64,000 nucleotides of DNA. Source: Apostichopus japonicus. Its lineage: Eukaryota; Echinodermata; Holothuroidea; Aspidochirotida; Stichopodidae. The stretch's first letter is position 1, and the number at the start of each line of letters is the position of its first letter. The stretch spans positions 10,606,013 to 10,670,012 of the forward strand of contig NC_092577.1 of NCBI RefSeq assembly GCF_037975245.1. The letters run 5' to 3'. The notes under the pieces were generated by a model that saw only the letters and a program-made list of their open reading frames with translations, did not search any database and had not been told where the DNA came from. Positions 31,301-34,300 of this stretch are shown one piece after another. Position numbers and translations under genes: made by a program.

Positions 31301-34300
31301 AATCTCACCCTCTCTTGCCCCCCCCCCCCCATCTCTCCAGGATGGGAAAGAATCAGTAGTCAGGAAGAAATGAAATGTAAGTAGAGAGACTGAATGTTTC
31401 AGAATGATATCAAGATGCAGAGTTAGTCGGGTATCAACTCTAAATCGATGGTTCAACTTACTGAATATTCAATGTGGTTCAACTTACTGAATATTCAATG
31501 TGGTTTAAATTACTGAATATTCAATGTGGTTTACATTACTGAATATTCAACAATGGTACAACTTACTGAATATTCAGCAAACATTCAACTAACTGAATAT
31601 TCAAAGTGGTTCAATTTACTGAATATTCAAAATGGTTCAACTTACTGAATATTTAACCATGGTTCAACTTAATGAATATTCAATGTTGTTTAAATTACTG
31701 AATATTCAACAATGGTTCAACTTACTGAATATTCCTCATCCGAATCATCTAACTTGTTCTTTTCTTTTTCCCTGATTATGTTGGATTCGTTTATCATATC
31801 CTTAAGAATGGACAGAGGTTGAGCTTCCTTGATGAATGTATGCTGAAATAAACAAAAGCAAAATAATTATAGAAGTAGCATATTTCTCTATATGATACTT
31901 CCTCCCTTCTCTAAAACAGAGCAAAATGCAAAGATTCCGCACAAAACAGCTGCTTGCCAATGTCATCTTGTAATATGCAAATTTCAAAAACATTTATGCT
32001 ATGCAAATTACAGGGAAACAAGCTGTATTGATAGTTTGTAGCATGTGGTCACAACCAAAAAAACCTTACTAGTGAAAGCGGCCGTTCCCTGAAAACACCG
32101 AATTCAGCATTGAGACTGGACCTACTAATGCTTTTATAGGGAATTTAGACAAATGCAAATATACGATTCTAGAATCTAGACCTGTTCCCTAATCTTCCCT
32201 GACATATATGTCTCTGAATGCTTCCTACAAATATCAGGTAAAAAGAATGTGTTACTGTATGCCTATCTGACAGGTTCAATAAATCATTCATCTTAAGCAA
32301 GCTTATCACTTTACCCTTACCCATACCTACAGGTAACATACAGAATGCTGGATCGAGTAAATCTGTTGCTATAACCTTTAAAGGATACCTACATTTCTTA
32401 CCTCATGCAAACCTGTCTTGAGGAGCCATCCAAAAATGTGACCTACATCACTAACCTCAATTAAACACTTCCCTTGAGATATTTTACATTACAAACCTTC
32501 AGTGAACCTATAACTATGACCTTTCCCTAAAGATAACCTAGATTACTAATACCTCATGGAAAATGTTGGGGTAACCATACCCCAAAGGTTACCTACATAA
32601 ATTAACTGAAGTAAACCTGTTGCTATAACCCTTCCTTGTAAGTTCAATGTTTTGCTTATTTTGAGTTAGTATGATGCTATGACCCTTCCATAAAGGAATT
32701 AAATCAAGTGAACCTGTTGCTATGGCTCTTCACCGAAGGTTGCCTGTTTTACTTACAAAAAGTAAACCTATTGCTACGACTCTTCACTGAAGGTTGCCTG
32801 TTTTACTTACAATAAACCTGTTGGAATGACTTTTCCCTGGAGGTTGTGTGTTGTACTTACATTAAGCAAACCTGTTGCTACAATCCTTCCCTAACTTACA
32901 AATGTTAAGTCAAGTTATTCCTATGACTCTCTTCCCTGTAGCCTAGTTTTGCTTACATTAAGTAAATCAGTAGCTGTGGCCCTCTCTTCTGGATTTTTGA
33001 TGAGACATATTGAAGTAAAATCAATAAATTCTGAAGACCATCTTTCTGGTTGAGAAAAGGTTGGTGGAGGTTTGGTCGGTATCATGAATATAGCCTGACA
33101 AAAAAGGAAAGAAAAACAATATAAAAACAAATCTGTTAGCAAACTGCTTATCCACGAAAGAGCCTGTTTAAGAGAATGTGTGTAAATAAGAGGGCCTAAC
33201 GATTCGATCCTAGCAGGATCTTCTGCAGAGGCTGAAAAAAGAAGATCCTGCTAGGATCGAAACGTCAGGCCTTCTTACTTTTACACAAAAAGGAAAGAAA
33301 AAATACAATAATGACCACAAAAAAAAAAAAAAAAGGTTTCATCTAAAAACCCCAATCAGAGTCGTCAGTTTATATTATTACGACCTTACGTACAAAGTTA
33401 ATAATAACTGTAAAATTATTGTCAATCTCAGGTAACTCTATATGAGTATCATTTGTTGTATATTTTTGTTAAGAACCTATGGATCAAAAATTTTCTACTA
33501 ATGAATGAACTGAATGTAATGTTATATTAACCACAGACAAGTCTAAGAAAACCACTCAAATGACCAGCCCCAAAATCAGCCGCTTGTCAAGATGGGTTGG
33601 AGACATCCTGGAACGATGTAAAGCATTCTAATTTCTTACAACTGGCATCTTAGAAGAAATTGGTTGGGGTGGGTATTGATCTTCTAATTGTACTCACAGT
33701 GCAGATCAATCACGTATTCACCAGAGGGGTGGGCTGGGGGGTTGGTGGGGTGGGGGGCCTGCATTAGTTACTAGTTATGTTGTTAATATATCTATATATC
33801 TCTATGAAAATGAATTCACAAAATATCCTTCCATTTGTAAACTGATGCAGAAAAGTTCAAGTAGCAATTCCAGGAGGGCAGCTTCAACGATTGAAGAGAT
33901 CGAGTCCATAACCTCTGGCCTGAAAGAGGAAAGAGTCGGATGTATTAAATATTCATGCGATGATCTTACCCTCATAGGATGAATGTCTGCATATGGAGGT
34001 TTGCCCTGGGCCATCTCGAGAGCTGTAATACCCAAGGACCAGATATCCGCCTTGCAGTCGTAACCGATCTCCTGTATGACCTCTGGGGCCATCCAAAAAG
34101 GGGTCCCTATAACCGTGTTCCTCTTTGCCATGGTGTCCTGTGACATCACCAAAGAACAAAACAGAGAAGATGAGGGAACATTAAAAATTGGAAATCCAAG
34201 ACTGACTTTTTTGTGTGTGTGTAAATAGCCAATTTTACCACTTGACAAAGTGTCATATGAATATGATGAAGAAAAATAAAGGGTAAAAATGTGATTCAGA

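Follow-up and report, generated by a model that had tools for sequence, protein, structure and literature searches.

A minisatellite with a widely shared palindromic core includes the exon 8 splice donor of a Hippo/MST kinase gene in Apostichopus japonicus

The window analysed here is a stretch of 64,000 nucleotides from Apostichopus japonicus (NC_092577.1, 10606013-10670012), which contains a Hippo/MST gene on the minus strand. Its exons were located with tblastn using a human MST2 query, and the exon edges were placed by eye from splice signals. Exons 2 to 11 as spliced (19319 to 41522; numbered from 2, with the start exon unlocated) join in phase to 531 codons followed by a stop, with zero internal stops. 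The spliced product contains the Pfam domains Pkinase (E 8.8e-71) and Mst1_SARAH (E 2e-22), and among solved structures the chain nearest to it is 4lgd, human MST2. The gene is a genuine Hippo/MST kinase with a Ste20-type kinase domain and a C-terminal SARAH domain. Exon 8 (31726 to 31842, minus strand) comprises 117 nt in phase 0, ends with the nine bases GAATATTCA and is followed by the donor GTAAGT at 31720 to 31725, with the G of GT at 31725. The absence of AG before the GT of this donor (TCA/GTAAGT) is not unusual, since other donors of the gene lack it as well, including ACC/GTAAGT, AAT/GTAAGC and TTT/GTGAGT. The exon 8 end, its donor and the Hippo identity, all proposed in a preliminary description of this DNA, are thus borne out by an open, in-phase coding sequence with both domains, and the use of this first donor is predicted from the gene structure. 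Exon 9 (22546 to 22894, minus strand) encodes a linker with TM motifs and starts with Asp-Glu-Glu-Asp-Ser, a caspase-like DEED before Ser.

The last nine bases of exon 8 are at the same time the first part of a tandem array on the minus strand (31445 to 31734), which consists of 11 units of 26-27 bp with the core TGAATATTCA. Unit boundaries were set by splitting the minus strand from 31734 to 31445 at [GA]AATATTCA. Unit 1, GGAATATTCA, spans the exon-intron junction, joining the final nine bases of exon 8 to the beginning of intron 8, and 10 units follow downstream. TRF detected the array at 31448-31734 with a period of 26, 10.9 copies, 82% matches and a score of 349 (388 as period 106). Head-to-tail repetition of a 26-27 bp unit in 11 copies makes this a minisatellite, for which several copies of about 10-60 bp are characteristic. 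TRF and the unit split agree that a tandem array with the exon 8 donor as one of its units is present where the preliminary description had located it; its count of 11 units downstream is right for the total, which includes the exonic unit, and leaves 10 units downstream. The exonic unit carries nine of the ten core bases and lacks the first T of TGAATATTCA. GTAAGT is intact in five of the 11 units (1, 4, 7, 10 and 11), which are the real donor and, as had been claimed, four full copies among the 10 intronic units. These decoys on the minus strand lie at 31640 to 31645 (unit 4), 31561 to 31566 (unit 7), 31482 to 31487 (unit 10) and 31456 to 31461 (unit 11), and their use would extend exon 8 by 80, 159, 238 and 264 nt, respectively. 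The positions previously given for alternative donors (31456, 31482, 31561 and 31640) belong to these hexamers but mark their far ends; the G of GT is found at 31461, 31487, 31566 and 31645.

To what extent the array keeps its donors can be read from departures from the majority letter of each column across the 10 intronic units. Changed cells amounted to 1/100 in TGAATATTCA, 7/60 in GTAAGT and 21/100 in the remainder of the unit (core versus donor p 0.005; donor versus rest p 0.20; core versus rest p 4e-6), and these p-values are too small because the units share their history. Compared with the whole spacer, the core showed 1/100 versus 28/160 changed cells. Hence, the array chiefly keeps the palindrome TGAATATTCA nearly constant and not the donor. 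The donor hexamer has not stayed significantly more constant than the remaining spacer, and the decoys thus show no hint of being selected. The contrast between core and spacer is not an artefact of choice, since the Hippo array was found independently of its palindrome. In palindrome length, the Hippo array compared with genomic stretches gave p 0.052.

We searched the genome (671,581,487 bases, 35 contigs) for the unit and for its core. A 22-base unit with up to three mismatches gave 37 matches, 10 of them in the Hippo array, and the reversed pattern gave 20. Among the remaining 27 matches, of which nine are copies of one dispersed sequence, no second cluster was found, so amplification of the donor-bearing spacer probably took place locally. 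Three exact copies of TGAATATTCA separated by 8-30 bases occurred in 115 windows of the genome, counted with overlaps and including the Hippo array; the matches listed fall on contigs C2 to C11, on both strands, and represent at least 17 separate loci. As controls, the triple pattern was counted for the reversed TGAATATTCA (3 windows), for TCAATATTGA (10 windows at one locus; reverse 4), for TTGATATCAA (6 windows at one locus; reverse 13) and for TGCATATGCA (24 windows at 6 loci, one partly simple repeat; reverse 0), so that TGCATATGCA, too, builds arrays. The window itself contains a second TGAATATTCA array of about 100-bp units at 42132 to 42519, upstream of exon 2 of the Hippo gene, and 14 of the 15 copies of TGAATATTCA in the window fall into the 31445-31734 and 42132-42519 arrays.

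For a closer comparison, 10 of the at least 17 loci were picked by hand, nine found via the core and one (L001) via its likeness to the Hippo array; all 10 are biased towards a constant core by this choice. Their units measure 20 to 40 bp and their spacers differ. When these 10 loci and the two arrays of the window were compared all-against-all by blastn, every match printed lay inside the arrays or at their edge. The core was less variable than the spacer in 10/10 of these arrays, significantly (p < 0.05) in eight (L001, L023, L024, L025, L026, L027, L029 and L030) and in the same direction in L022 (p 0.12) and L028 (p 1). Core-sharing minisatellites combine one core with different spacers at many loci and keep the core steadier than the spacer, and both features were found here. 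Next to the L022 (CAGGTGAG) and L023 (GGTAAGAT) arrays, both of which contain donor-like words, no abutting exon was recognised by eye. Two further observations, also made by eye, concern individual loci. In L024 (218-670, minus strand), an open frame of 151 residues starts in the TGAATATTCA array and continues into exon-like sequence, and in L028 (671-784), the array adjoins frames resembling the end of a non-LTR retrotransposon.

Several other accounts of the shared core were considered and set aside. Palindromes do not appear to be a general trait of arrays, as only 2 of 28 arrays in the window and 20 stretches of 9 kb exceeded genomic stretches in palindrome length at p < 0.05 (combined p 0.64). 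Nor does one transposon seem to carry TGAATATTCA, because 17 of 20 C1 loci with single or clustered copies matched nothing when loci and window were compared with each other (blastn, E 1e-5). The matching ones were L034 and L036, which match each other and L023 beside the core, with L036 also matching L003, and L046, which matches a 47-bp piece of the window. An array of heat-shock elements (nGAAnnTTCn) is disfavoured by the fixed centre of the palindrome: opening the centre to nine of the 16 dinucleotides (TA included) yielded 130 windows compared to 115 for TA alone, and the central TA is thus nearly fixed.

Dispersed arrays with different units and one short common core are known from the human minisatellites of the Jeffreys type. 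The TGAATATTCA arrays resemble these in being dispersed and in sharing a short core between differing units, whereas their core is an A+T-rich perfect palindrome instead of a G-rich, chi-like sequence, and they are described here from one assembly. In Caenorhabditis elegans, CeRep25B is described as consisting of 24-bp palindromic or near-palindromic units that are 75% intronic and over-represented near alternative splicing regions (PMC4039745). It is likewise palindromic and mostly intronic, but has, in that description, one unit sequence and forms chromosome clusters, while the Hippo array shares the core alone with other arrays and has a donor inside its unit.

The genome contains 10,352 copies of TGAATATTCA, where Markov models of orders 1-4, with 180 kb as training sequence, predict 1,966-2,916; the palindrome is thus 3.5-5.3 times over expectation; the reversed TGAATATTCA has 965 copies versus 688-1,527 expected. 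At 32 TGAATATTCA sites of 20 C1 loci, the preceding base was A in 22/32 and the following base T in 22/32 cases, and the full ATGAATATTCAT was present in 17/32. This 12-mer is MORE-A4, the homodimer site of Oct6, Brn1 and Brn2, and is reported as the top de novo motif when class III POU factors were mapped by ChIP-Seq in neural stem cells (PMC4576985); its inner 10 bases equal the core of the array. ATGAATATTCAT has 3,490 genomic copies versus 194-271 expected (13-18 times over); by comparison, reversed A4 TACTTATAAGTA occurs 268 times versus 58-120, ATGCATATGCAT 590 times versus 110-186 and its reversed control TACGTATACGTA 107 times versus 11-18. Among the four 12-mers tested, MORE-A4 showed the highest ratio to expectation (13-18 times), followed by the reversed C4, TACGTATACGTA (6-10 times). 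The candidate of a MORE-specific enrichment is weakened by the high counts of the reversed controls TACGTATACGTA and TACTTATAAGTA, and because these exceed expectation, long palindromes may be over-represented in this genome in general. Moreover, the Hippo array contains the inner 10 bases of ATGAATATTCAT only; in none of its units are both the outer A and T present, and the core is mostly preceded by T and followed by G. Since enrichment extends to other 12-mer palindromes and the outer bases of MORE-A4 are incomplete in every Hippo unit, the link to POU factors amounts to a lead. It may be speculated that the class is built on a protein-recognised palindrome, with TGAATATTCA as the inner part of MORE-A4, and that the bound palindrome seeds duplication and stays constant; in the Hippo gene, this would have multiplied one splice donor into a ladder, and the amount of unproductive mRNA could be tuned by the length of that ladder. 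We consider this idea rather improbable.

Regarding the origin of the array, an encounter of some array with some splice site in the genome is unsurprising in itself: in the window, 9.1% of the sequence lies in arrays (counted from a period of 10, 3 copies and about 90 bp upwards), and in 180 kb drawn from 20 contigs the share is 2.8%. To the preliminary description, the array had looked seeded by the exon-intron junction. This is plausible given that no second cluster of the unit exists among the genome matches and that unit 1 is jointly the most central unit, tied with unit 10 (edit distance 36 each), but the palindrome also anchors other arrays and the nine exonic bases look extra. Alternatively, an intronic TGAATATTCA array could have reached the exon edge and replaced an older donor (ancestral GATGAG, then GT), by which the exon would have gained Glu-Tyr-Ser together with the new donor. 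Such a capture would be in line with a core that is common to many arrays unrelated to Hippo, and with an exonic array part of exactly nine bases that follows GATGAG in phase. When the protein is aligned by eye with human MST2 (NSDE-DELDS versus DSDE-EYS-DEEDS), the nine array bases appear added and Glu-Tyr-Ser is extra; the alignment to solved structures of MST2 chains leaves this stretch without resolution. The missing first T of the core in unit 1 also counts against seeding. However, capture needs an intronic unit that already possessed GTAAGT just after the core, a coincidence, whereas seeding at the junction explains why a good donor directly follows the core in the unit. The lack of a second cluster of the unit in the genome speaks against capture as well, and with AAT, ACC and TTT at other Hippo donors, the end of exon 8 without AG is not odd enough to call for it. 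We therefore regard capture as possible but unlikely, and infer that seeding at or beside the junction is roughly twice as probable.

Tandem repeats are prone to misassembly, and the array could in principle be a collapse or expansion error. Its 290 bp are far below the length of HiFi reads, and since the units differ from each other, their order should be resolvable. A closely similar A. japonicus assembly was built from HiFi reads (PMC10344927). An assembly artefact is thus highly implausible.

With somewhat more confidence than doubt, we favour a local minisatellite of the core-sharing class that includes the exon 8 donor, probably had its seed in the junction or directly next to it and is mostly neutral. 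By chance, nine of the ten core bases would have stood at the end of the exon, with GTAAGTTGAACCA after them. The palindrome could then have aided duplication of the junction through slippage or unequal exchange, in the same way as at other TGAATATTCA sites. The first donor would be chosen by the splicing machinery because it is transcribed earliest and gives the shorter exon. Now and then one of the four downstream donors would be used instead, adding 80-264 nt that begin with Val-Ser-stop, and such mRNAs would be decayed. On this view, the array is mainly neutral, with unproductive splicing as a small cost.

For each of the five units with GTAAGT, the predicted energy of the U1 duplex is -5.6 kcal/mol, because all share TCA/GTAAGTTG, and the predicted energies of the six units without GTAAGT range from -1.7 to -2.9. 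Every decoy extension, as well as retention of intron 8, begins with Val-Ser-stop, and the reading frame thus confirms the read-through past the real donor that had been described. The associated estimate of about 311 residues for the product appears slightly too low, since exons 2 to 8 contribute 304 codons, to which the unlocated start exon and Val-Ser have to be added. A truncated protein would end right before the position of the caspase fragment, because exon 9 opens with DEEDS. Specifically, DEED-Ser at 22883-22894 sits exactly at the exon 8/9 junction, at the position of the caspase site DELDS of human MST2, which it resembles. Caspase cleavage is reported to yield a constitutively active 36-kDa kinase (PMC4929427), and the activity of MST1/2 to go up on truncation of the linker (PMC6131212). 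A short active kinase, as previously suggested, would accordingly agree with a stop before exon 9 and an end adjoining a caspase-like site, but the suggestion is weakened by the three further exons, which predict nonsense-mediated decay. The rules of this pathway predict loss of the mRNA, barring a used polyadenylation site in intron 8, and as the stop falls upstream of exons 9, 10 and 11, the transcript would more likely be degraded than yield a short active kinase.

It is conceivable that the array acts as a splicing switch, with selection keeping the ladder of donors and their use, or intron retention, giving either a short active kinase that lacks the linker and the SARAH domain or a controlled amount of unproductive mRNA. 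The equal predicted U1 energy of the four decoys and the real donor, the immediate halt of read-through and the raised activity of MST1/2 upon linker truncation (PMC6131212) would fit such a role. On the other hand, the donor hexamers decay about like other spacer and faster than the palindrome, and the predicted decay of mRNAs with a stop ahead of three exons would remove the message. In addition, the stretch from the array to 29700 contains ten more GT sites whose predicted U1 pairing equals or exceeds that of the real donor, indicating that near-equal decoys are common in intron 8. RNA fold prediction of donor openness gave no clear rule and singled out neither the real donor nor the decoys (mean unpaired 0.37-0.49 for the real donor and 0.04-0.30 for units 7, 10 and 11); unit 4, at 0.54-0.70, is predicted to be more open than the real donor, a point against the favoured reading. 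The array RNA is predicted to fold far better than shuffled sequences (z -7.1; with exon 8 z -5.0), but these scores were not counted as evidence, because a repeated palindrome is expected to fold well anyway. We judge a selected switch to be decidedly improbable, and a mostly neutral minisatellite with its donor included is still the preferred reading.

Tandem repeats at or near splice sites have been described in other contexts. In human paralogues, internal tandem repeats at exon-intron boundaries can alter splicing (PMC2812944); as described there, these cases are recent, concern new introns and have RNA evidence, whereas here a single kinase gene is known from genome sequence. An intronic VNTR is reported to affect splicing of human ABCA7 (PMC5954066), which like the Hippo array is an intronic tandem repeat. 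The gain of introns via tandem duplication of splice-like sites is discussed in PMC2891723. Among the papers listed in our literature searches on TGAATATTCA, sea cucumber minisatellites, minisatellites at splice sites and introns from tandem arrays, neither the Hippo array nor its class was found, which is no proof of absence. New against the known boundary, palindromic and core-sharing arrays is the combination of an exon donor within the unit and an A+T-rich palindrome as the core. If the class is real, a short palindrome predicts the birthplaces of arrays, and a genome-wide test is possible with one motif. The exon 8 junction of the Hippo gene may also differ among individuals of this farmed sea cucumber. 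A. japonicus is known for its regeneration, a context in which Hippo signalling is of interest. For gene annotators, the succession of several equal donors at the end of exon 8 is a warning.

Other repeats were noted in and around the Hippo gene. Large arrays in or around its introns are located at 20062-21853 (15-bp unit, 121 copies), 28363-29233 (29-bp unit, 30 copies) and 55068-56444 (139-bp unit, 10 copies at 96%). Exon 9 itself contains a coding minisatellite at 22638-22766 (TRF; 24-bp unit, 5.4 copies, 97% matches), which encodes HDDGTMIT. By our own count on the predicted protein, the linker has 10 TM motifs and the kinase domain one further TM; for human MST2, seven TM motifs are reported, four of which bind MOB1 (PMC6131212). 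Tandem duplication in exon 9 may be a source of extra phospho-docking sites.
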